DNA of 33,121 bases from Pseudomonadota bacterium (GTDB taxonomy: Bacteria; Pseudomonadota; Alphaproteobacteria; Rhizobiales; Xanthobacteraceae): contig JACQAE010000290.1 of assembly GCA_016195095.1 (NCBI GenBank), positions 1 to 33,121 of the forward strand. The letters are read 5' to 3'. The notes below the pieces were generated by a model, which saw only the letters and a list, made by a program, of their open reading frames with translations, made no database searches and was not told where the DNA came from. Below, one piece after another: positions 2,240-26,627 of this stretch. The position numbers and the translations under genes were made by a program. The first letter of the stretch is position 1, and each line of letters begins with the position of its first letter.

Positions 2240-2662
2240 ATGGCGACCGAGCGCACGTTTTCGATCATCAAGCCCGATGCGACGGCCCGTAACCTCACCG
2301 GCGCCGTCAATTCCATGATCGAACAATCTGGCCTGCGCATTGTAGCGCAGCGCCGGGTCCGCATTACGCGCGAACAGGCGGAAACGTTTTATTCCGTGCA
2401 TCGGGAACGGCCATTCTTCGGCGAACTCGTGCAGTTCATGACCTCCGGTCCCGTGGTCGTTCAGGTTCTCCAGGGCGATGGGGCGATTACGAAATATCGG
2501 GAAATCATGGGCGCGACCGACCCGGCGAAGGCCGCCAATGGCACCATTCGCAAGACCTTCGCCCGGTCCATGGGGGAGAATTCCGTGCATGGCTCGGATT
2601 CGGCGGAGAATGCTGCGGCGGAGATCGCCCAATTCTTTTCCGGCAACGACATTGTCGGCTGA
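2240..2662 (+). CDS. ndk: Nucleoside diphosphate kinase
   Basis: A 140-residue enzyme that transfers the gamma-phosphate of ATP to nucleoside diphosphates through a phosphohistidine, balancing cytoplasmic NTP and dNTP pools. The sequence shows [11 protein letters not shown] near the N-terminus (Lys11), RERPFF in the middle (residues 55-60), and the active-site signature N-S-V-H-G-S-D-S with catalytic His117. Length and motif order match bacterial Ndk exactly. The start ATG at 2240 gives the standard [14 protein letters not shown]-terminus. It has its own candidate promoter upstream and is followed after 149 bases by a TerC-family gene on the same strand. Confidence 0.97.
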
Positions 2663-2811
2663 TTTTCACCGCTTGACCGATCGGTCGGAGGCTGGCGGAA
2701 TTCGCGAACGGTGAATATCCGATGTTTGGCACCGATCTGGCATCGACGCGTTGATTTTGGGTGCCGCGCCGAGGGCGACGGCAATAATGGTCACGTCGGG
2801 AGGGGTCGCCG

Positions 2812-3564
2812 GTGGGAATTCTTTGGGACGACATTTTGCAGGCGCAGTTTTGGATCGCGGCCGGGCAGATCATTGGCATCAACGTCATCCTCTCCGGCGA
2901 CAACGCGGTCGTCATCGCGCTCGCGTGCCGCATGCTGCCGCCGCGCCAGCGGCTTTGGGGCATGATTCTCGGCGCCGGCGTTGCCGTCCTGTTGCGCGTT
3001 CTGTTCACGCTTGTCGTGGCACAGGCAATGTCGTGGCCCTACCTCAAGCTGGTCGGCGGCGTGCTGTTGCTATGGGTCGCGGTCAAGCTCGTCGTGCCCG
3101 AGCATGGTGACGGCGACGGCAAGGTTGAAGCCGCCGATAACCTGTGGCGCGCGGTGCGGATCGTCGCCATTGCCGACATCGTCATGAGTCTCGACAATGT
3201 TATCGCCATCGCGGCGGCGGCCGAGAGTGCCGCCGTGCGCGTTGATCCGGGCCACGCAATCGCGATCAAGACCGCGCTTATCGTCTTTGGGTTGGCCACC
3301 AGCGTTCCATTGATTATCGCCGGCAGTGCCGTGCTGATGTCGCTGCTCGACCGGTTTCCGGTCCTGGTTTGGGCGGGCGCCGGTCTTCTCGGATGGGTTG
3401 CCGGCGATATCATGATCAAGGACGTGGCGCTGCTCGGCATAGCGTCGGCGGGCACGTTGGAAGGCCTGTATATTTGGGCGGCGGTGGCTGGCGCCATCTT
3501 TGTTGTCGGCATCGGGTATGCGCTGCGCCGCAGGGCTGCCGCGGGGAAGATGACCGAAGTCTAG
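2812..3564 (+). CDS. TerC family integral membrane protein (YjbE-like)
   Basis: A 250-residue polytopic inner-membrane protein with about seven hydrophobic segments. The two TerC hallmarks are present as an internal repeat: L-S-G-D-N-A (Ser28-Asp30-Asn31) in the first half and M-S-L-D-N-V (Ser126-Asp128-Asn129) in the second, both inside membrane segments. In related proteins these acidic pairs are linked to metal ion handling, notably manganese export; here the substrate is inference only. A charged cytoplasmic loop rich in Asp and Glu (about 96-110) separates the halves. The start is a GTG at 2812 with GGGAGGGG (2798-2805) just upstream. I saw no clear manganese-riboswitch fold in the short leader. 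The molybdopterin oxidoreductase gene follows on the same strand after 113 bases. Confidence 0.9.
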   Translation: MGILWDDILQAQFWIAAGQIIGINVILSGDNAVVIALACRMLPPRQRLWGMILGAGVAVLLRVLFTLVVAQAMSWPYLKLVGGVLLLWVAVKLVVPEHGDGDGKVEAADNLWRAVRIVAIADIVMSLDNVIAIAAAAESAAVRVDPGHAIAIKTALIVFGLATSVPLIIAGSAVLMSLLDRFPVLVWAGAGLLGWVAGDIMIKDVALLGIASAGTLEGLYIWAAVAGAIFVVGIGYALRRRAAAGKMTEV

Positions 3565-3677
3565 CGAGCAGACACCCGCGACGGTGCCCAGTTCCGAGCG
3601 GCAACCGTGGTATATGTCGGCAGTCCTGCGGGCGTTGCGATTGCAGCAAAGTGGCGGCCACCCGAACCGGAGCAAAA

Positions 3678-5792
3678 ATGATGAACCGGATGCTGCGCGC
3701 GGATGTTCGAGCCAGCGCCTGTCCGCACGACTGCCCTTCCACCTGCGCGCTCGAAGTCGAGGTCTTGGACGACCGCACGATCGGCCGTATCCGCGGCGCC
3801 GAGGACAATGGTTACACGCTTGGCGTGATCTGCGCCAAGGTTGCCCGATATGCCGAGCGTGCGCACCATCCCGACCGGCTGCGCGTTCCGCTGCGACGCA
3901 AGGGCGCCAAGGGTACGGGCAATTTTGTTCCGATAAGCTGGGACGATGCGCTTGACGCCGTTGCTGAAAATCTGCTGCGCGCCGAAGAGCGGCATGGCGC
4001 GGAAGCGGTGTGGCCCTATTATTACGCTGGCACCATGGGCCTGGTGATGCGCGACGGCATCAATCGGCTCCGCCACGTCAAGAAATATTCAGGCTTTCAC
4101 GGGACGATCTGCGTGACGACCGCCTATACGGGATTCGCCGCTGGCACCGGACGCATAGCCGGTCCCGATCCGCGCGAGATGGCGAAATCCGATCTTGTCG
4201 TGATCTGGGGGACCAACGCGGTCAATACCCAGGTCAATGTGATGACGCATGCCGTCAAGGCGCGCCGCACGCGTGGCGCCAAGATCGCCGCGGTCGACGT
4301 CTATATGAACGCAACCATGGCGCAGGCCGACTTGGCAGTTCTCATCAGACCTGGAACGGACGGCGCTCTCGCCTGTGCGGTCATGCATTGCCTGTTTCGT
4401 GACGACCGTGCCGATTGGCCCTATCTTGACCGCTATACGGATCGGCCACGCGATCTTGCCGCGCACGTGGCGGACCGGTCGCCGCAATGGGCGTCCGCCA
4501 TTACCGGCTGCGATGTAGAGACAATCGAGGCTTTCGCGCGCCTCATTGGCGAGCGCCGGCGGGCCTATTTTCGCCTGGGCTACGGGTTCGCGCGTTCGCG
4601 AAATGGCGCGGTGAACATGCACGCGGCGTGCTCGATCCCCGCTGTGACCGGGGCGTGGCAATATGAGGGCGGCGGCGCCTTCCACAACAATGCCGACATC
4701 TATCACTGGGACAAGACGTTGATCGAGGGCCTTGATGCGCGCGACCCTACCGTGCGTATGCTCGACCAATCAAGAATCGGCGCCGTGTTATGCGGCGACG
4801 GTGACGCGCTCGCCGGCGGGCCGCCGGTCACCGCGCTTCTGATCCAGAATACCAATCCGCTGTCCGTCGCGCCCGACCAGGAACGCGTTAAGCGTGGTTT
4901 CGCGCGCGACGATCTCTTCGTCGCCGTGCACGAGCAGTTCATGACCGAGACGGCGCGCATGGCCGACATCGTGCTGCCGGCCACGATGTTCGTCGAGCAC
5001 GATGATATCTATCAAGGCGGCGGGCACCAATACATCATCCTGGGACCCAAGCTGATCGCGCCTGGGGCCGAATGCCGGTCAAATCATGAGGTCATTTCGG
5101 CGTTGGCGGAACGACTGGGCGCGCGTCATCCCGGCTTTGATATGGCACCCAGAGAGCTGATCGATTGGACGCTGCGACATTCCGGCTGGGGAACGCTCGC
5201 CGAGCTTGAGGAAAAGCGCTTTATCGATTGCCAGCCCGATTTTTCGACGGCGCATTACCTTGACGGATTTGCGTGGCCCGACGGCAAGTTCCGCTTTTGC
5301 CCGGATTGGCCGAACGTTCCCTTTCGCAGTCCCGTCCACGCCGGACCCGTTGCGTCCATGCCGACGCTGCCGGACCATTGGGCGTCGATTGAACAGGCCG
5401 ATGCGGACCACCCGTTTCGGCTGACAACGTCGCCGGCGCGTAATTTTCTCAATTCAACGTTCAACGAGACGCCGACATCGATCGCCAAGGAGGGCCAGCC
5501 GAGCGTGCTCATCCATCCCGATGACGCGGCCGGCCTGGCGATTGCGGACGGCGATGAGGTTGAACTCGGCAACGCGCGTGGCCGCGTGCGACTCGCCGCC
5601 AGGCACTTTCCCGGCGTGCGGCGCGGCGTCGTGATCGCGGAATCGATCTGGCCCAATCGCGCATTCGCCGACGGGCGCGGAATTAATACGCTGACCGGCG
5701 CCGACGCAGTCGCGCCCTATGGCGGAGCCGCGTTCCACGACAATAAGATTTGGATCAGACGCGTCGAGGCGCCGCTGGCGAAAAGCGCGTGA
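3678..5792 (+). CDS. Molybdopterin oxidoreductase, DMSO reductase superfamily, [4Fe-4S]-containing
   Basis: A 704-residue catalytic subunit of the bis-molybdopterin-guanine-dinucleotide family. The N-terminal cysteines A-C-P-H-D-C-P-S-T-C (Cys15, Cys19, Cys23) and a later I-C-A-K (Cys52) form a ferredoxin-like [4Fe-4S] site. W-D-D-A-L-D-A-V follows, then the central molybdopterin domains (WGTNAVNTQ, NTNPLSV, MADIVLPA) and a C-terminal dinucleotide-binding domain (NFLNSTF, VLIHPDDAAGLAIADGDEV). Cys145 in H-G-T-I-C is the best candidate molybdenum ligand, by position only. No Tat signal is visible, so it is probably cytoplasmic. No small iron-sulfur or membrane subunit gene is adjacent. The frame is open for 309 bases upstream, but that part overlies the terC gene; ATG-ATG at 3678/3681 with GGAG at 3669-3672 is the start. 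The substrate is unknown. Confidence 0.9.
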   Translation: MMNRMLRADVRASACPHDCPSTCALEVEVLDDRTIGRIRGAEDNGYTLGVICAKVARYAERAHHPDRLRVPLRRKGAKGTGNFVPISWDDALDAVAENLLRAEERHGAEAVWPYYYAGTMGLVMRDGINRLRHVKKYSGFHGTICVTTAYTGFAAGTGRIAGPDPREMAKSDLVVIWGTNAVNTQVNVMTHAVKARRTRGAKIAAVDVYMNATMAQADLAVLIRPGTDGALACAVMHCLFRDDRADWPYLDRYTDRPRDLAAHVADRSPQWASAITGCDVETIEAFARLIGERRRAYFRLGYGFARSRNGAVNMHAACSIPAVTGAWQYEGGGAFHNNADIYHWDKTLIEGLDARDPTVRMLDQSRIGAVLCGDGDALAGGPPVTALLIQNTNPLSVAPDQERVKRGFARDDLFVAVHEQFMTETARMADIVLPATMFVEHDDIYQGGGHQYIILGPKLIAPGAECRSNHEVISALAERLGARHPGFDMAPRELIDWTLRHSGWGTLAELEEKRFIDCQPDFSTAHYLDGFAWPDGKFRFCPDWPNVPFRSPVHAGPVASMPTLPDHWASIEQADADHPFRLTTSPARNFLNSTFNETPTSIAKEGQPSVLIHPDDAAGLAIADGDEVELGNARGRVRLAARHFPGVRRGVVIAESIWPNRAFADGRGINTLTGADAVAPYGGAAFHDNKIWIRRVEAPLAKSA

Positions 5793-5895
5793 GTGTCGCG
5801 CATGCGGCGACGCGAGGCCATTACACCCGCCAAAGTGTCAAGTGCGATCCACTCGGCAAGCCGGCTTCCACCGGTCGTGATCATGATTTTCCCGT

Positions 5896-5945
5896 GAGCA
5901 TGATTTTGCCCGAAAAATGGTTCCCAATTTTCGCGATCATGCTTT
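5896..5945. repeat. Palindromic intergenic repeat, family 1, copy A
   Basis: Imperfect palindrome with outer arms GCATGAT (5898-5904) and ATCATGC (5936-5942) and an internal CCCGAAAA / TTTTCG pair. It reaches the TAA stop of the convergent GST gene (5944-5946). It resembles the elements at 14699-14802, 22375-22425 and 29686-29784 in arm sequence and size. A partial second GATCATGATTTT lies just upstream at about 5878-5890. It could act as a transcript-end hairpin between the two convergent genes. Confidence 0.7.
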
Positions 5946-6675
5946 AGGATAAAGCCTTGCATCCCGCGATCTCATCGAGCTGCGGATAATATCGCGCGGT
6001 CATGCGTCCCACATAGCGTTTGAGATTGTCGTGGCGCTGTGCGGCGGTGCGTATCGGTGAATCAAACACCGGGCAAAGGGCATGTGCGACAAACGCAAAC
6101 ACGGTTGCGTCGACGCCGCAGACACTCGGCCCCATGAAATATGGCTTCGTACCGAGAAATTCGGCGATCGCGTCAATTGAGCGAATGCCCAGACGATGAG
6201 CGTCTTCTGCGCTATGTCGGCCCAATCCCTGAGCCTTGATTGATTGGCGCACCTGGCGGCGCACAACCCTGGTGATCACCGGCCGCAACGGCATTGGGAC
6301 GCGCTTGAAAAAGTTGGCCGGTCCTTTCGCGAAATTGGCGTCGTTTGTCCAGCGGTCGCCGAGGATCACCCAATAGAGGTTGTCCTCGATCATCTTTTCG
6401 AATGCCCAGGCGACGGCGCGCTCCGCTGGCGCGATGGCGGCATCCAGATCGAGCGCGTATTTTCTCTCCAGGTGCCAACGGATGATCGTCGAGTCGGCGA
6501 CGATTTCGCCGGCGTCCTCGATATAGGGCAGCTTGCCTTTCGGCGCCTTGTTGAAGCCGTTGGGATCGGTTTTGTATGGCAGGCCGGCGATTTTGAGCAG
6601 CACCTCGGCTTTCATGACAAACGGGCTTGGGTCGGGCATGCCGAATGCGCTGCCGAATACGTACAAACTGATCAT
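5944..6675 (-). CDS. Glutathione S-transferase family protein, Fax/metaxin-like
   Basis: A 243-residue protein with a thioredoxin-like N-terminal domain and an all-helical C-terminal domain. The N-terminus (SLYVFGSAFGMPDPSPFVMK, then KAEVLLKIAGLPYK) has the D-P-S-P-F-V-M-K pattern of the Fax ('failed axon connections')/metaxin group rather than the usual catalytic Ser or Cys of classical GSTs. KGKLPYIEDAGEIVADST (about 47-64) is the glutathione-pocket segment with the cis-Pro and the D-S motif. The C-terminal V-D-A-T-V-F-A-F-V motif (about 189-197) is the conserved helix cap of this group. Function in bacteria is unproven; glutathione-dependent detoxification is a guess. The ATG at 6673-6675 has GGAG about 10 bases upstream. 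It is convergent with the molybdopterin oxidoreductase. Confidence 0.88.
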   Translation of the reverse strand: MISLYVFGSAFGMPDPSPFVMKAEVLLKIAGLPYKTDPNGFNKAPKGKLPYIEDAGEIVADSTIIRWHLERKYALDLDAAIAPAERAVAWAFEKMIEDNLYWVILGDRWTNDANFAKGPANFFKRVPMPLRPVITRVVRRQVRQSIKAQGLGRHSAEDAHRLGIRSIDAIAEFLGTKPYFMGPSVCGVDATVFAFVAHALCPVFDSPIRTAAQRHDNLKRYVGRMTARYYPQLDEIAGCKALS

Positions 6676-6725
6676 GGTGGAATGTCTCCGGCGATCGGGC
6701 GGCGTCCTGCCGTTATGCGCGCAAC

Positions 6726-7379
6726 TCAGGACGCGGGTGAAACGAGCATTCTATCTGAATTCGATTCCGCATCGATTACCTCGTCCGCGCCGCTCACACA
6801 GTTTTGTCCCGACGCGAACCGTCGCAGCGCCGTCGGGTAGATGCGATGCTCGACGGCCAATACGCGCCGCGCCAGCGTCTCGGCGCTATCGTTCGGTAGG
6901 ACGGGGAGCGCGCCCTGCGCGATGATCGGTCCGCCATCCATGTCGACGCTAACGAGGTGCACGGTGGCGCCGTGGATCTTGACTCCGGCCGCGAGCGCGC
7001 GCGCATGCGTATCGAGGCCCTTGAAGGATGGCAGCAGCGAGGGATGGATATTGAGCATGCGACCTTCCCAACGCGCGACAAACCATGGCGTCAACAAGCG
7101 CATGAATCCGGCGAGGCACACAAGGTCGATCCGTCGTTCGATGAGCCGCGCGTCGATTGCCCGCTCGAAGGCTTCGCGATCGTTTCCGAACGCGGCATGG
7201 TCGATGACGGCGGTCGTGAGGCCCGCATTTTGGGCGACGGCGAGCCCGCCGGCCGCCGGCCGATTGGACAATACCAATGCGATCTCCGCCGGATAGGCGG
7301 GATCGGCGGCCGCCTTGATCAGGGCGGCCATGTTCGAGCCGCGCCCGGAAATCAAGATCGCCGTGCGCGTTCTGGCCAT
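6726..7379 (-). CDS. purN: Phosphoribosylglycinamide formyltransferase
   Basis: A 217-residue cytoplasmic enzyme that transfers the formyl group of 10-formyltetrahydrofolate to GAR, the third step of purine synthesis. Visible motifs are the phosphate-binding S-G-R-G-S-N (11-16), the catalytic N-I-H-P-S-L-L-P-S-F-K-G (Asn110, His112) and V-D-M-D-G-G-P-I (Asp148), corresponding to Asn106, His108 and Asp144 of the E. coli enzyme. I start it at the ATG 7377-7379, five bases after the purM stop; in-frame GTG codons at 7391 and 7388 would instead overlap purM. The tight coupling indicates a purM-purN operon on the minus strand. The C-terminal 25 residues after the folded domain look variable. Confidence 0.95.
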   Translation of the reverse strand: MARTRTAILISGRGSNMAALIKAAADPAYPAEIALVLSNRPAAGGLAVAQNAGLTTAVIDHAAFGNDREAFERAIDARLIERRIDLVCLAGFMRLLTPWFVARWEGRMLNIHPSLLPSFKGLDTHARALAAGVKIHGATVHLVSVDMDGGPIIAQGALPVLPNDSAETLARRVLAVEHRIYPTALRRFASGQNCVSGADEVIDAESNSDRMLVSPAS

Positions 7380-7384
7380 GGCGT

Positions 7385-8464
7385 TCACCACTCGAGGTCG
7401 AGGCAGCCGTGGAAGGTCACGCGCTCGGCGCGCCCGCCGGCGTCGACCAGTTCACCAAGACGCAGGACCGTCTCACCGCCGCGCGTGAGCGCGCCTTCGA
7501 CCGTACCGGCGGCGCCGGGCTCCACGACGACGATCATGCCGATGCCGCAATTAAACGTGCGCAGCATTTCGCCGGCTGCGATGCCGCCGACGGCGGCGAT
7601 CCAGCGGAACACCGGCAGTACCGCGACCCTGCCCAGATCGATTGCGACCGCGAGCCCGTTGGGTAGAACGCGGGGAATATTGTCGGGAAACCCGCCGCCA
7701 GTGATATGGGCGAGGGCCTTGATCGCCCCGGTCTGGCGAATCGCCGCCAGGCACGCGCGCACATAGATGCGTGTCGGCGTGAGCAGCGCCTCGCCGAGCG
7801 CCGTGCCAGGCGCGAATGGGGCTGGATCGCTCCACTTCAGGGCGGATTTTTCGACCACCCGACGTGCGAGCGAATACCCGTTCGAATGGATGCCCGACGA
7901 AGCCAGTCCGAGCACGATGTCGCCGATTGCCAGGTCCTTGCGCGGTAGCAACGCGCCGCGTTCGGCCGCGCCGACCGCGAAGCCCGCGAGGTCATAGTCG
8001 GCGGCCGCATAAAGTCCGGGCATTTCCGCCGTTTCGCCACCGATCAGGGCGCAGTTCGCGGCCCGGCATCCTGCGGCGATGCCGGCGACGACCGCGGCGC
8101 CGATCGCCGGGTCGAGCCGGCCACAGGCGAAATAGTCGAGAAAGAACAGCGGTTCGGCACCTTGCACGATCACGTCGTTGACCGACATGGCAACGAGGTC
8201 GATGCCGATCGTATCGTGGCGGGAGGTTTCGATGGCGAGCTTGACCTTGGTGCCGACGCCGTCTGTCGCCGCCACCAGCACTGGGTCAATAAATCCGGCG
8301 CGTTTAAGATCGAACAAGCCGCCAAATCCCCCGATTTCGGCATCCGCACCGCGGCGCGCTGTCGCCCGCACCAGTGGCTTGATCATCTCGACCATTCGGT
8401 TGCCGGCATCGATATCGACGCCGGCCTGGCGGTATGTTAGGCCCGATCGTGTTTCGTCTTGCAT
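7385..8464 (-). CDS. purM: Phosphoribosylformylglycinamidine cyclo-ligase (AIR synthetase)
   Basis: A 359-residue ATP-dependent enzyme closing the imidazole ring of AIR, the fifth step of purine synthesis. The N-terminus [17 protein letters not shown], the segments GGFGGLFDL and [13 protein letters not shown], the signature [10 protein letters not shown] (about 145-154) and the C-terminal [16 protein letters not shown] and FNCGIGM are all present. I chose the ATG at 8462-8464 because related proteins start about eight residues before the LTY motif; a GTG 12 bases upstream (8476) is an alternative. Ribosome binding signals are weak for both. purN follows immediately, so the two successive purine genes are probably co-expressed. 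The gene is divergent from the phosphatidyltransferase gene. Confidence 0.96.
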
Positions 8465-8516
8465 CGGTGGTTCCACATGTTCGCGGGCCTCGTACGGCTA
8501 ATTCCGACGCGGCGCA

Positions 8517-9122
8517 ATGGCTTCGAGCTTTCCGGCGCGCGGCCTTGACGCTAATCTGGGGCCGGGCACGTCGAGCCGGGGCAATGTTTTGAATCTTCCC
8601 AATCTCGTTACGATCGCCCGCATTCTGCTCGTGCCGGTCGTCACCTGGGCGATCGCGGCGGGCGAGATGCGGCTGGCTTTCCTATTGTTTCTCGCCGCCG
8701 GGGTGAGCGACGCCGTGGACGGTTTTCTTGCCAAGCGGCTGGGGATGACCAGTGAGATTGGCGCCTATCTGGATCCGCTCGCGGACAAGGCGCTGATCAT
8801 GTCGATCTATGTGACGCTCGGCATCGCGGAAGCGATTCCGCGCTGGCTAGTGATTCTGGTCGTATCGCGCGATATCATGATCATCGCCGCGGTCATGCTG
8901 TCGTGGCTCGTCGGCAAGCCCGTGGCGGTGCGGCCGCACCCGGTATCAAAGCTCAACACCGTGGCGCAGATCCTGTTTGCCGGCCTCGTGCTTGCCTCGC
9001 TTGGTTTCCAGTTCGATATATCCCAATGGAGTCAGGCCGCTATGCTCCTGGTCGCGGCACTGACGTTAATGTCGGTATTATTTTACCTCATTGGCTGGGT
9101 TCGTCATGTCAACGCGGGTTGA
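8517..9122 (+). CDS. CDP-alcohol phosphatidyltransferase family protein
   Basis: A 201-residue inner-membrane enzyme with about five membrane segments, making phospholipids by displacing CMP from a CDP-alcohol such as CDP-diacylglycerol. The signature D-A-V-D-G-F-L-A-K-R followed by G-A-Y-L-D-P-L-A-D-K (about 65-91) fits DxxDGxxAR-x8-GxxxDxxxD with Lys in place of Arg. It resembles PgsA/cardiolipin synthase-like members placed before an AI-2E permease in rhizobia. The acceptor cannot be told from sequence. Start uncertain: the ATG at 8517 has no ribosome site and adds a non-conserved 24-residue tail, whereas a TTG at 8589 (LNLPNLVTIARI) with GGGG upstream matches the typical family N-terminus. 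The gene is divergent from purM. Confidence 0.9.
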   Translation: MASSFPARGLDANLGPGTSSRGNVLNLPNLVTIARILLVPVVTWAIAAGEMRLAFLLFLAAGVSDAVDGFLAKRLGMTSEIGAYLDPLADKALIMSIYVTLGIAEAIPRWLVILVVSRDIMIIAAVMLSWLVGKPVAVRPHPVSKLNTVAQILFAGLVLASLGFQFDISQWSQAAMLLVAALTLMSVLFYLIGWVRHVNAG

Positions 9123-9183
9123 CGGCGCGGGCGCGCCGGCGTGGCGTAAATATCCTGTCGCGACGTAATTCGAGGATGCGGTA

Positions 9184-10245
9184 ATGACGTTCGGACGCCA
9201 AATAACGTTCTGGGTCGCGGCGCTCGGCGTGCTCCTCGCCCTGATCTGGCTGCTGCACGAAATCCTCCTGCCGTTTGTCGCGGGGATGGTGCTTGCGTAT
9301 CTGCTCGATCCCGTCGCTAGCCGAATTGAACGCATTGGCATCAACAGATTTTTCGCGACACTGACGATCGTTGGTCTGTTCATTTTTGCCTTTGTCGTGC
9401 TGGTCATCCTGGTTGCGCCGATCGTGATCAGCCAATTGCTGGAATTGATCGACAGGCTGCCCGGATATGTTGCGCGGCTGCAGGAATTAATCGCCGATTC
9501 GAATCGCCCCTGGCTCACCAAAATCGTCGGCGACAGCATCGGTAGCGTCGAACTGACGACAATGATGAAACAGGGTACGGGCGGGCTCACGATTTTCCTG
9601 CGCTCGCTATGGTCGGGCGGGCAGGCGCTGGCGTCGATATTCTCGCTGCTGGTGATTACTCCGGTTGTCGCGTTTTACCTCCTGAACGACTGGCACCGCC
9701 TTGTCGCCACGATCGACAATTGGCTGCCGCGCGATCACGCCGACGCCATCCGCCGCTTGGCGAGCGACATCAACACAGCCATAGCCGGATTCGTGCGCGG
9801 CCAATCGGCAGTGTGCCTGATCCTCGGCTTGTTCTATGCCCTCGGTTTAACCATCATTGGTTTGAAATTCGGGTTCGTTATCGGCCTCATCGCCGGCCTG
9901 ATCAGTTTCGTTCCCTATGTCGGCACACTCACCGCCTTCGTGGTTTCCGTCGGGGTGGCGATTGCCCAGGCATGGCCGGACTGGACGCTCCTGGCCGCCG
10001 CGGTTGGCGTGAACTTGGTCGGCCAGGTGCTCGAAGGCTACATTCTTGCTCCCTATCTGGTTGGGCAAAGCGTTGGGTTGCACCCGGTCTGGCTCATGTT
10101 TGCCTTGCTGGCGTTTGGTTATCTGTTTGGGTTCGTCGGCTTGCTAGTGGCCATTCCGTTGGCGGCCGCGGTTGCCGTGGTGGTGCGGTTTGCGCTGCGC
10201 AAGTATCTTTCAAGCCCATTCTATACTGGGAAACATCCGCATTGA
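9184..10245 (+). CDS. AI-2E family transporter (PerM/YdgG-like permease)
   Basis: A 353-residue polytopic inner-membrane protein with about eight hydrophobic segments, two near the N-terminus, one around 55-80, a soluble stretch with amphipathic helices (about 85-150), then a C-terminal bundle. Conserved pieces include PFVAGMVLAYLLDP (about 30-43), PVVAFYLLNDW, GLIAGLISFVPYVG and the C-terminal hydrophobic block LFGFVGLLVAIPLAA. The family is named for autoinducer-2 export in E. coli, but members also include sodium/proton antiporters, so the substrate is open. The ATG at 9184 has GAGG about 8 bases upstream. hdaA begins within 15 bases of its stop, so the two are very likely in one operon. 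Confidence 0.92.
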   Translation: MTFGRQITFWVAALGVLLALIWLLHEILLPFVAGMVLAYLLDPVASRIERIGINRFFATLTIVGLFIFAFVVLVILVAPIVISQLLELIDRLPGYVARLQELIADSNRPWLTKIVGDSIGSVELTTMMKQGTGGLTIFLRSLWSGGQALASIFSLLVITPVVAFYLLNDWHRLVATIDNWLPRDHADAIRRLASDINTAIAGFVRGQSAVCLILGLFYALGLTIIGLKFGFVIGLIAGLISFVPYVGTLTAFVVSVGVAIAQAWPDWTLLAAAVGVNLVGQVLEGYILAPYLVGQSVGLHPVWLMFALLAFGYLFGFVGLLVAIPLAAAVAVVVRFALRKYLSSPFYTGKHPH

Positions 10246-10259
10246 TCGTGAGTTCGTCC

Positions 10260-10934
10260 ATGTTGCCGGCACCGCGTCAGCTCGCGCTTTCCTTGCCTCA
10301 TGCCGAACGGTTCGCACGCGAGGATTTTCTGTCCGGGCCGAGCAACATCGCCGCGCTCTCGCTCATTGAGCGATGGCCGGATTGGCCTGACCGAACAGTG
10401 GCGCTTATTGGCCCCGCGGGCGCCGGCAAGAGTCACCTTGCGGCGGTCTGGGCGTCTGGCGCTGGCGCGCGCGCCATCGCAAGCCGCGCGCTCGTTGGCG
10501 CCGATCTGCCAACCGCGCTGGCGACTGGCGCGCTGGTCGTGGAGGATATAACGCCTGACGCCATCGACGAGCGCGCGCTCTTTCACCTGCTCAATTTTGC
10601 GCGCGAGGAGCGCGCGTTTGTGCTGCTCACGGCACGCACCGCGCCCGGACTTTGGCGCGTCGGCTTGCCGGACCTTTTGTCGCGCCTGCGCGCGCTGCCG
10701 GTCGTGACGCTCGCGCCGCCAGGTGATGCGCTGCTGCGGGCGGTGCTGGTCAAGCAGTTCAGTGACCGCCAGGTCGCCGTCGACGAGGCCGTTGTGTCGT
10801 TCGTTGCCACCCGCATCGAGCGTTCGTTTGCCGCGGTGCGCTCGATTGTGCGCGAGCTCGATCGCGCGGCGCTGCAACAACAACGTCCGATAAGCCGAGT
10901 GCTTGCGGCGGAGGTTTTGGAAAGCCGAACTTGA
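10260..10934 (+). CDS. hdaA: DnaA-related AAA+ regulator of replication initiation (HdaA/Hda family)
   Basis: A 224-residue protein related to the AAA+ domain of DnaA but without the DNA-binding domain IV. It begins with LPAPRQLALSLPHAERFARE, a QLxL/F-type clamp-binding peptide (Q-L-A-L-S-L) that in Hda proteins docks on the DnaN sliding clamp. G-P-A-G-A-G-K-S (51-58) is the Walker A loop, and V-V-E-D-I (about 95) the Walker B strand. The family stimulates ATP hydrolysis by DnaA after initiation, preventing re-replication. The frame is open far upstream, but that portion overlies the AI-2E gene; ATG 10260 or GTG 10248 is the start. It is placed between an AI-2E permease and ppk, as in other Hyphomicrobiales. 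Confidence 0.9.
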   Translation: MLPAPRQLALSLPHAERFAREDFLSGPSNIAALSLIERWPDWPDRTVALIGPAGAGKSHLAAVWASGAGARAIASRALVGADLPTALATGALVVEDITPDAIDERALFHLLNFAREERAFVLLTARTAPGLWRVGLPDLLSRLRALPVVTLAPPGDALLRAVLVKQFSDRQVAVDEAVVSFVATRIERSFAAVRSIVRELDRAALQQQRPISRVLAAEVLESRT

Positions 10935-11063
10935 CCACGGCGAGAACGTTCTGACGAGCACCGCATTTGCATTCTAACTCATTGATTTTAAGTAACTTCT
11001 TACCAAAACTTCTTGCCCCATTTTGGTTCCACGTCGGCGGCCGGAGCGGCCGGCGTCATCCAA

Positions 11064-11092
11064 ACGACATCTTAATCGGATCGTCTTATACT
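11064..11092 (+). promoter_or_regulatory. Candidate promoter for ppk
   Basis: ACGACA (11064-11069, four of six matches to TTGACA) and TATACT (11087-11092, five of six matches to TATAAT) are separated by 17 bases and lie 38 bases upstream of the ppk start. The 195-base gap from hdaA also holds an A/T-rich stretch at 10975-11020. A separate promoter for ppk would explain why it is not tightly joined to hdaA. Prediction only. Confidence 0.4.
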
Positions 11093-11129
11093 GAACCACC
11101 CCCGAAACATTCAAACACGATGGCGTGTC

Positions 11130-13198
11130 ATGAGTGGCCGCAGCCAAGATGTTGTTCAGGCAAAAGGATTTGAGCCAAGCGCGGGATCGGCGCCGGCGGG
11201 CGCCGGCGTGGATATCGCGGCAAGCCCTGAGCGGTTCGTAAACCGCGAGCTATCCTGGCTGCATTTCAATCGCCGCGTATTGGCGGAGGCTGAGAATGCC
11301 GGCCATCCATTGCTCGAACGCGTGCGGTTTTTGTCGATTTCGGCCAACAATCTCGACGAATTCTTCATGGTCCGCGTCGCCGGCCTCAGGGGCCAGGTGC
11401 GCGCCGGCATTACCAGCCGTAGCCCCGACGGCCTGACCGCGGCCGAACAGCTCGTACGCATCGCGGAGGCCGTATCCTCGCTCGCGGGCGACCAGCAGGC
11501 CCGCTGGCGCGCCTTGCGTGAGCATCTTGCGAGCGAAAAGATTATCCTGGTCGAGGCGGACGACCTCAAGAAGGCCGATCGTGCGTGGCTGGAAGAATAT
11601 TTCCTGCAGAATATCTTTCCGGTCCTCACCCCGCTCGCTATCGATCCGGCTCACCCGTTTCCCTTCATCCCCAATCTCGGGTTTTCGATCGCGTTGCAGC
11701 TCGCGCGGGCGAGCGATGGCAAGGCGATGAATGCGCTCATTCGCGTGCCGCAGAAGATCGAGCGCTTTATCCGCCTGCCGGCCGCCGCGGACGCGGAGGG
11801 CACGCGGCTCGTTTCGCTCGAGCAGGTCACGACGCTGTTCATACCGTTGCTGTTCCCCGGATATGCCGTAAAAGGCCAGGGTGCCTTTCGCGTTATTCGC
11901 GATTCCGATCTCGAAATCGAAGAAGAGGCCGAGGATCTGGTGCGATTGTTTGAGTCCGTGCTCAAACGCCGACGCCGCGGATCGGTCATCAGGCTCGAGA
12001 TGACCGAACCCACGCCGGTCGAATTGCGCCGGTTCGTGCAACGCGCGTTGGCCGTCGCCGACGAAGAATTGGTCCTGGTCGACGGCATGCTGGCGATGGC
12101 CGACCTGTCGCAACTCACCCAGATCGTTGGCGCGGATCGCGCCGACCTGGAATTTGTACCCTTCAATCCACGTTTTCCCGAACGCATCCGCGATCACGCC
12201 GGCGACTGCTTCGCGGCGATTCGCCAGAAGGATCTGATCGTCCACCATCCCTACGAGTCCTTCGACGTCGTGGTGCAATTCCTGCAACAAGCGGCGCGCG
12301 ACCCGGACGTGATCGCCATCAAGCAGACGCTGTACCGCACGTCCAAGGATAGCCCCATCGTGCGCGCATTGATCGAGGCCGCGGAAGCCGGGAAGTCGGT
12401 GACGGCGGTCGTCGAACTCAAGGCGCGTTTTGACGAAGAGGCCAATACGACCTGTCGTTTTTCTCCGCTGGCCCGGTCATTGCCCGCGACGTCGCGCGCA
12501 TTTTCAATTTCATCACCGGATATGCCGAGCCGGCCGAGCTCGAACGCATGGCGGTCTCCCCATTTCGCCTCAAATCGAAAATTCTCGACCATATCGCCAA
12601 GGAAGTGGCGCATGCCCGCGCCGGGCGACCGGCTTGCATCTGGATGAAGATGAATTCGCTGGTCGATCCCGATATCATCGACGCGCTTTACGCGGCCTCG
12701 AGAGCCGGCGTTGCGATCGAACTCGTGGTGCGGGGCATCTGCTGCCTGCGACCGGGAGTGCCAGGCCTCTCCGAAACCATCAAGGTCAGATCGATTGTCG
12801 GCCGTTTCCTCGAACACGGCCGAATCTACTGCTTTGGCGTGGGCAACGGGCTGCCGCATCCCAAGGCCGCGGTCTATATTTCCTCCGCCGACATGATGCC
12901 GCGCAATCTGGATCGGCGGGTCGAAACGCTGTGCCCGATCATCAATCCAACGGTGCACGAGCAGGTGCTCGAGCAAATCATGGTCGCCAACCTCAAGGAC
13001 AATCAGCAAAGCTGGAACCTCTTGCCCGATGGCACCTCGAATCGGATAAAGCCTTCTCCTGGCGAGGAACCGTTCAATGCTCACCAATACTTCATGACCA
13101 ATCCGAGCCTGTCGGGCCGTGGCAAATCGCTCAAGGAATCATCCCCCCGCAGTCTTGTCGGCGCGCGCGCGCGCGCCGCGGCGAGCGACCAGCGCTGA
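11130..13198 (+). pseudogene. ppk: Polyphosphate kinase 1, disrupted by an internal deletion and frameshift
   Basis: Ppk1 polymerises the gamma-phosphate of ATP into polyphosphate through a phosphohistidine. The first reading frame (11130 to about 12447) holds the N-terminal and head domains ([41 protein letters not shown]) and the start of the catalytic domain with I-K-Q-T-L-Y-R and [11 protein letters not shown], which carry the Mg-binding arginines. Homology then jumps to [19 protein letters not shown] in the +2 frame and continues to [15 protein letters not shown] and the stop at 13198. About 58 family-consensus residues between these points are absent, including the T-H-A-K motif with the phosphorylated His (His435 in E. 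coli) and the C-H-I-G-T-G-N-Y segment. The second active-site His in F-L-E-H-G-R-I is kept. As written, translation ends at 12647 as a 505-residue truncated product. Either a true null allele or an assembly error. Confidence 0.9.
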
Positions 13199-25379: not shown

Positions 25380-26627
25380 ATGTCACAATCTCACCTGGCG
25401 TTACTGGCACGGCTTGGCCTTGCCGCGGCAATGCTGTCGCCGGCAGGCGCGCCGGCGCGCGGCGAAGGCTCGGATCCGGTGCCGGCGCTCGTTGCCGCCT
25501 ATAATGCAACGGGCGCGCGACTTTCGTCGAAGCTCGGCGAAAAGGCCGGCAATATCGTGCTCTCACCCTATTCCATCGGCGCGGCGCTCGCCATGGTTCT
25601 GGCCGGCGCGCGCGGAGAAACGGCACGCGAGATGACGGCCGCGCTTGGCCATACGCTGCCGCAAAGTACAATCGAGGCATCGCAGGCAAGATTGCACGCA
25701 ACGCTCGTTGGCGACACAAAGGGCGACGCCGGCGCCGTGGGCCGGGCTACCGGCGTCAAGGCAACCCTCCTCGCCGCCAATGCGCTGTATGTCACCGCGG
25801 GTGCCGGCGGCGTTGCCCCGGATTATGGCGCGTTGATCGCCGACAGGTTTTCCGGCGAGTTGTTCGTCGGCGCCGATCTGGAGAAGATCAACTCCTGGGT
25901 GAAAGGTAAAACCGAGGGACAGATCGACAAGGTCCTCGATCGCCTGGCGGCAAATTCCGTGGCCGTCCTGGTGAACGCGATCTATTTCAAGTCGCGTTGG
26001 GCCGAGTCGTTTGACGTCGAGCAGACGCGCTCGGCGCCGTTCAAGCTGTCCGGCACGCAGACCATCGACGTGCCGACGATGCGGCGGAGCGGTCGCTATG
26101 GCATATTGGCGCTCGACGGGTACCACGCAATTCGCCTGCCATATCAGGATCCCGACCTGGCGATGACGGTTGTCATGCCGGACGACATCGAGGGCGTCGG
26201 ACCGCTTGCCCAACGGCTCACGCCGACGGAAACGGCGAAATTACTTGAGCTCGCCGCCAATCAGCCGCCGGAACACGTGCAACTTCAATTGCCGCGGTTC
26301 AAGGCGCAAGGCGACGCCGACCTCGTTGCGCCGCTCGTGGGGATGGGTGTGAAACTTGCATTCGACCCGGTTAAAGCAGACTTTTCAGGTATAACCGGGC
26401 GAGCGAATTCCGACGGCGATGTGTCCATCAGCCAAATTCGTCACAAGGCTGTTGTCGAGGTCGCCGAGGAGGGCACGCTGGCCGCGGCTGCGACCGCGGT
26501 CGAGGTATTTTCCCGCTCGACGGCGCGCCCAACCGAAATCCGCGTCGATCGTCCGTTTCTGTTCTACATCACCGCCCAATCGACCGGCGCCATCCTATTC
26601 GCCGGCCGCGTGGCGGATCCACGGTGA
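25380..26627 (+). CDS. Serpin family protease inhibitor, probably exported
   Basis: A 415-residue serpin with an N-terminal export signal (LALLARLGLAAAMLSPAGAPA, cleavage likely near residue 26). Serpin landmarks are NIVLSPYSIGAALAMVLAGARGET (about 58-81), INSWVKGKTEGQI, VLVNAIYFKSRW and the C-terminal DRPFLFYI plus ILFAGRV. The reactive-centre hinge is E-E-G-T-L-A-A-A-A-T (363-372), close to the inhibitory consensus, with Leu at P13 where Glu is common. Counting P17 as the first Glu places Arg379 at P1 and Ser380 at P1', predicting a trypsin-like serine protease target. The shutter region is slightly short around residues 150-175. The ATG at 25380 has GGAG about 7 bases upstream. No protease gene is adjacent. 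Serpins are uncommon in proteobacteria. Confidence 0.93.
   Translation: MSQSHLALLARLGLAAAMLSPAGAPARGEGSDPVPALVAAYNATGARLSSKLGEKAGNIVLSPYSIGAALAMVLAGARGETAREMTAALGHTLPQSTIEASQARLHATLVGDTKGDAGAVGRATGVKATLLAANALYVTAGAGGVAPDYGALIADRFSGELFVGADLEKINSWVKGKTEGQIDKVLDRLAANSVAVLVNAIYFKSRWAESFDVEQTRSAPFKLSGTQTIDVPTMRRSGRYGILALDGYHAIRLPYQDPDLAMTVVMPDDIEGVGPLAQRLTPTETAKLLELAANQPPEHVQLQLPRFKAQGDADLVAPLVGMGVKLAFDPVKADFSGITGRANSDGDVSISQIRHKAVVEVAEEGTLAAAATAVEVFSRSTARPTEIRVDRPFLFYITAQSTGAILFAGRVADPR

Follow-up and report, generated by a model that had tools for sequence, protein, structure and literature searches.

What does a serpin do in an alphaproteobacterium of the Xanthobacteraceae, and which protease would it be likely to meet there? 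The question is raised by one gene within a 33,121-nucleotide stretch of contig JACQAE010000290.1 (all of which we refer to as the window), which a preliminary description made from the letters had presented as encoding an exported serpin with an inhibitory hinge and a predictable scissile bond. Here we examine the gene, its reactive loop, its relatives and the proteases that it might inhibit.

A complete serpin gene without a protease neighbour

The open reading frame spans exactly 25380-26627 on the forward strand, begins with an ATG that has a GGAG stretch directly upstream, and encodes a product of 415 amino acids. Residues 41-414 of this protein match the serpin family PF00079 far beyond chance (E 3.5e-87; 293.5 bits, the cut-off being 27) and cover positions 3-370 of the 370-position profile, which makes the serpin a full-length one and bears out the earlier identification. 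It is the sole match to this family in its own genome, a 3.8 Mb assembly that is 96 percent complete. The features discussed below are the following:

25380..26627, + strand: single-copy serpin gene encoding 415 aa (ORF; PF00079)
25380..25463, + strand: probable export leader, residues 1-28 (hydropathy; similar or clearer leaders in relatives)
26466..26492, + strand: hinge P17-P9, residues 363-371, EEGTLAAAA (sequence; consensus ExGTEAAAA, excerpt of PMC8233489)
26514..26519, + strand: predicted scissile bond P1-P1', Arg379-Ser380 (17-residue rule; structural superposition)

The gene is flanked by a spermidine synthase gene and a gene for a DUF2336 protein, and no trypsin or caspase match was found among the genes of the 33,121-nucleotide window, so that the serpin stands without a protease neighbour. 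An operon with the adjoining genes was rejected in view of what these neighbours are and of the near absence of shared clusters: when 30 ORFs of the window were compared, none except the serpin and one of SDR type (933-1634) clustered with any other locus in the comparison. Since the GC and GC3 of the serpin gene are similar to those of the genes around it, composition does not mark it as a recent foreign insert, and a viral origin was rejected because tblastn found no relative of the serpin in the viral contigs. Promoter and terminator scans returned weak consensus matches only. Elsewhere in the window, polyphosphate kinase 1 is split (11130-13198, + strand): the first ORF corresponds to profile positions 20-429 and the second, in another frame, to positions 520-726 of 730. 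The DNA separating them is too short, and the gene would be either a pseudogene or the result of an assembly fault.

The N-terminus of the serpin has a hydrophobic stretch at residues 6-19 (12-residue means up to 1.93, by hydropathy only), followed by SPAGAPARGEG. This leader makes the export proposed earlier plausible, although it contains only one basic residue (Arg11), and the signal peptide is best described as a plausible one. In the excerpted text of PMC8233489, most prokaryotic serpins are stated to bear N-terminal transport peptides.

The reactive loop predicts an Arg-Ser scissile bond

The hinge, EEGTLAAAAT, starts at Glu363 (P17) and places Thr366 at P14. Inhibitory serpins of prokaryotes are described, in the same excerpt, by the consensus ExGTEAAAA with small residues at P12-P9 (PMC8233489), and the protein agrees with it at P15 (Gly), P14 (Thr) and throughout P12-P9 (all Ala). 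The single deviation is Leu at P13, where nearly all other rows of our 91-row serpin list have Glu. Save for this residue, the hinge is by its sequence of the inhibitory type, as had been claimed. Counting 17 residues from Glu363 leads to Arg379 as P1 and Ser380 as P1', which is the canonical loop length; as this count already reaches Arg-Ser, a loop shorter than 17 residues, which we also considered, is unneeded for this protein.

The position of the bond was also approached through structure. An AlphaFold2 model computed from a 38-row serpin alignment (mean pLDDT 88.4, pTM 0.83) has serpins as its best solved matches (VIA-align Z 41.7, rmsd 1.5 over 326 residues). The aligned part of the model ends with residue 379, and this residue pairs with residue 358, which we take to be P1 in both structures, of cleaved antitrypsin (8api) and cleaved antichymotrypsin (2ach). 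Because the 17-residue count and the superposition agree, the predicted Arg379-Ser380 bond holds by two routes. Residues 365-378 of the model form a strand, and most of the structures that it matches best are cleaved forms with the loop inserted. Being itself loop-inserted, the model says nothing on the exposed reactive loop, and we rejected any reading of loop exposure from it; structure prediction, which the preliminary description had proposed as a check, thus places the bond but shows no exposed loop.

Serpins are patchy in the family and change P1 rapidly

Serpins are patchy but real in the family of the window genome and common on Rhizobium plasmids. They were found in 11 of 101 genomes (its own and 100 relatives) and in 17 of 397 genomes of the same order, while a query with the clade-2 serpins described below matched 103 plasmid records, 88 of them from Rhizobium. 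The earlier remark that a serpin with a signal peptide is unusual in this lineage therefore holds less well than its other claims: serpins are thinly spread but present, also in those 88 records, and export is the norm among prokaryotic serpins (PMC8233489, excerpt).

A scan of genome contigs yielded 470 candidates encoding a relative, the best 80 of which were used as named loci. The set for the tree had 91 rows, consisting of 84 serpin ORFs from these 80 named loci, minus duplicates, plus 12 added rows; the ORFs of L020, L021, L022, L028 and L038 were dropped because these loci coincide with genomes G008, G021, G041, G051 and G053. The tree places the window protein in an alphaproteobacterial group of 12 rows (SH-aLRT 89), which is nested in a set of 16 (SH-aLRT 99) and has a sister group of 7 rows beside it. 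The phylogeny with other bacterial serpins that had been suggested as a check therefore groups the protein with alphaproteobacterial serpins.

Over the 91 rows, the P1-P1' pair is Thr-Ser in 20, Arg-Ser in 12, Lys-Ser in 12, Thr-Ala in 11 and another in 36. Arg-Ser occurs in 4 of the 12 rows of the alphaproteobacterial group, namely the window serpin and L023, L030 and L034, which come from Nitratireductor, Salaquimonas and BroJett030 MAGs; these three are uncharacterised proteins about 41-43 percent identical to the window serpin. The 7-row sister group, which is the closest and belongs to the same family, has no Arg-Ser and mostly other P1 residues, so that Arg specificity would not be conserved even nearby. 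The choice of P1 thus appears to change fast in this part of the tree, and fast change of P1 is a general trait of serpin reactive loops.

The nearest relatives are the Xanthobacteraceae-type sister serpins L002 and L004-L007, which are 42-47 percent identical to the window serpin by alignment and differ from it in most of their P1 residues. They also have a Cys-containing insert before strand s2A, whereas the mature part of the window protein contains no Cys. In L002, L004, L005, L006 and L007 the insert carries CPxGxxLxGxxC-like motifs just before s2A, which are absent from the window protein. Four sister-group serpins (L099, L101, L102 and L019) have neighbours in common, to which Pfam gives names in L099: a Colicin V production (CvpA-type) protein and a purF-like amidotransferase/phosphoribosyltransferase.

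Comparison with chloropin

A profile of 38 serpins had as its best solved match 8gxv, entered as 'Proteinase inhibitor I4 serpin', which is taken here as chloropin. According to the excerpted description of chloropin, this secreted serpin of Chlorobium limicola has a crystal structure, an Arg-Ser P1-P1' pair, a canonical hinge and a signal peptide, and it inhibits thrombin and KLK7 with acceleration by heparin and DNA, whose cofactor site comprises K126/K127 and K268/K269; in the same text the authors call the natural targets of prokaryotic serpins elusive (PMC10090351). The window serpin shares with it the Arg-Ser pair, an ExGTEAAAA-type hinge and the serpin fold. Whereas chloropin has a signal peptide, the leader of the window serpin is plausible by hydropathy only. 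The window protein also differs in that its sequence, on inspection, shows no clear KK pair following helix D, and its mature pI is 5.84, so that activation by a cofactor is not indicated. Chloropin has been characterised biochemically, while the window serpin is known here from its sequence and a model; it is an ordinary addition to the known bacterial serpin family.

Which protease might be inhibited

Taken together, we consider it likely that the gene encodes a single inhibitory serpin akin to chloropin, which is probably exported by Sec. The folded protein would display its reactive loop either in the periplasm or extracellularly, and we infer that it would encounter its target there, beyond the cytoplasm. 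A protease preferring Arg at P1 would attack Arg379-Ser380, upon which the loop would insert into beta-sheet A and the protease would be trapped as a covalent complex. Against this explanation stand the Leu at P13, unlike the Glu of most relatives, the single basic residue of the leader, the different P1 residues in most of the sister group, and the fact that inhibitor and substrate are indistinguishable by sequence. Non-inhibitory serpins exist, and the departure of P13 from the bacterial hinge consensus would suit a protein that is non-inhibitory or a pure substrate, with a storage, chaperone or carrier-like role; we regard this as improbable, however, given that P15 Gly, P14 Thr and P12-P9 Ala fit the inhibitory consensus (PMC8233489, excerpt) and that the loop has the canonical length.

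The preliminary description had suggested host, predator or own periplasmic proteases as possible targets. For an inhibitor of the chloropin kind, foreign trypsin-like proteases are the most likely class of target. None of the four PF00089 matches in the genome carries Asp at the sixth position ahead of the active Ser, a position that we take to be Asp189 in chymotrypsin numbering, and a trypsin of the cell's own was rejected as the target on this ground. With no Asp189 S1 protease seen in the genome, the target is more likely to come from outside the cell than to be an own trypsin. The genome also encodes one subtilase. Strong trypsin matches (>100 bits) showed no association with serpins among the 101 genomes, being present in 2 of 11 serpin genomes and 16 of 90 others. 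Protection of the cell from trypsin-like enzymes that hosts, predators or competitors produce fits Arg at P1 with Ser at P1', as well as the absence of an own Asp189 trypsin, and the authors of the chloropin study propose protection against endogenous or environmental proteases (PMC10090351, excerpt). We give this role slightly less than an even chance.

The cell's own caspase-domain (C14) proteases offer another kind of target. Metacaspases as a class cut after Arg or Lys, and the 3.8 Mb genome encodes 16 PF00656 proteins on contigs C210, C96, C283, C268 and others, with three of them lying within about 4.5 kb on C210. All 10 of the 16 that were inspected retain GHG and DACR[ND]NP, and 7 of these have a hydrophobic leader by eye. 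In plants, AtSerpin1 inhibits the metacaspases AtMC9 and AtMC1 (PMC10609998, excerpt), and clade-2 serpins of the same order adjoin caspase genes in several loci. The window serpin might accordingly be a brake within an endogenous protease-control circuit, restraining caspase homologues that would be exported and cut after Arg or Lys, while clade-2 serpins would restrain the proteases adjacent to them; if true, bacterial serpins of this order would regulate cascades, as their animal counterparts do, and not serve as shields against foreign enzymes. Yet the window serpin has no protease gene next to it, the number of C14 matches is not clearly higher in the 11 serpin genomes than in the 90 others (means of 5.45 and 3.98; one-sided Mann-Whitney p 0.32), and 3 of the 11 have no C14 match at all. 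We think such a circuit unlikely.

Many serpins of a second clade lie beside trypsin-like and caspase-like proteases

The clade-2 serpins of the order form one side of a branch (25 rows, SH-aLRT 92). The window serpin lies on the other side of the tree and has no adjacent trypsin-family gene. The clade-2 proteins, including that of Rhizobium johnstonii 3841 pRL11, belong to the same superfamily and order as the window serpin and have Arg-Ser or a similar pair in most loops. Most of these loops are shorter than 17 residues if Arg is P1, while that of the window serpin has 17. The loops of the Rhizobium plasmid serpins contain TERSIDP with Arg as the 16th residue, which would make them one residue shorter than canonical if this Arg is P1.

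The two sides differ also in their surroundings, as many clade-2 serpins adjoin trypsin and caspase genes and the window serpin adjoins none. In the fetched stretches, a trypsin-family gene is present at 9 of 19 clade-2 loci from whole genomes. Seven of the nine have it within about 2 kb and on the same strand as the serpin (G083, G334, G440, G164, G129, G197 and G345), and the other two at greater distances of about 8 and 10 kb (G306 and G057). No such gene was found in the stretches of the remaining ten loci (the second copy of G057, G052, G015, G367, G145, G256, G179, G208, G109 and G402), nor in those of 8 window-side loci or of the 80 named loci (the best 80 of 470), several of which have short flanks. 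The motif DxCxGDSGGP, of the Asp189 type, occurs in all nine trypsin genes of the genome loci and in all six from Rhizobium plasmids.

These six belong to seven plasmid regions that were chosen for inspection from the plasmid matches. All six Rhizobium regions hold a clade-2 serpin and have the same gene order: a DUF4384 or membrane protein, a caspase, a trypsin-like protease, the serpin and a serine/threonine kinase. The six records are closely related and do not represent six independent cases; in the cluster of Rhizobium CB782, the trypsin-like gene is annotated as peptidase C14. The seventh region, on a Sphingobium plasmid, has a serpin outside clade 2 and no protease gene shown. The cluster of the named strain is located as follows:

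2457-12202: cluster of Rhizobium johnstonii 3841 pRL11 (L168), with the serpin RL_RS32720 and the trypsin-like RL_RS32725

The arrangement resembles a protease cascade that includes a serpin of its own, which would restrain the neighbouring protease. Among the open-licence PMC papers listed by our searches, we saw no description of a trypsin-caspase-serpin cluster. The window gene adds one serpin of predicted Arg specificity to a family whose natural targets are described as elusive, whereas its clade-2 relatives have likely targets encoded next door, and in R. johnstonii 3841 pRL11 a named and tractable strain, which makes the question of targets directly testable. By associating such inhibitors with trypsin-like and caspase-like proteases, the clade-2 operons suggest what they are for, and they deserve more attention than the window gene itself. 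The proteases beside clade-2 serpins are secreted and trypsin-like, often accompanied by caspase-domain proteins and a serine/threonine kinase, and the same placing of a trypsin-like protease beside a clade-2 serpin is seen at L169 and L171-L174, and at L106, L158, L161-L163, L166 and L167.
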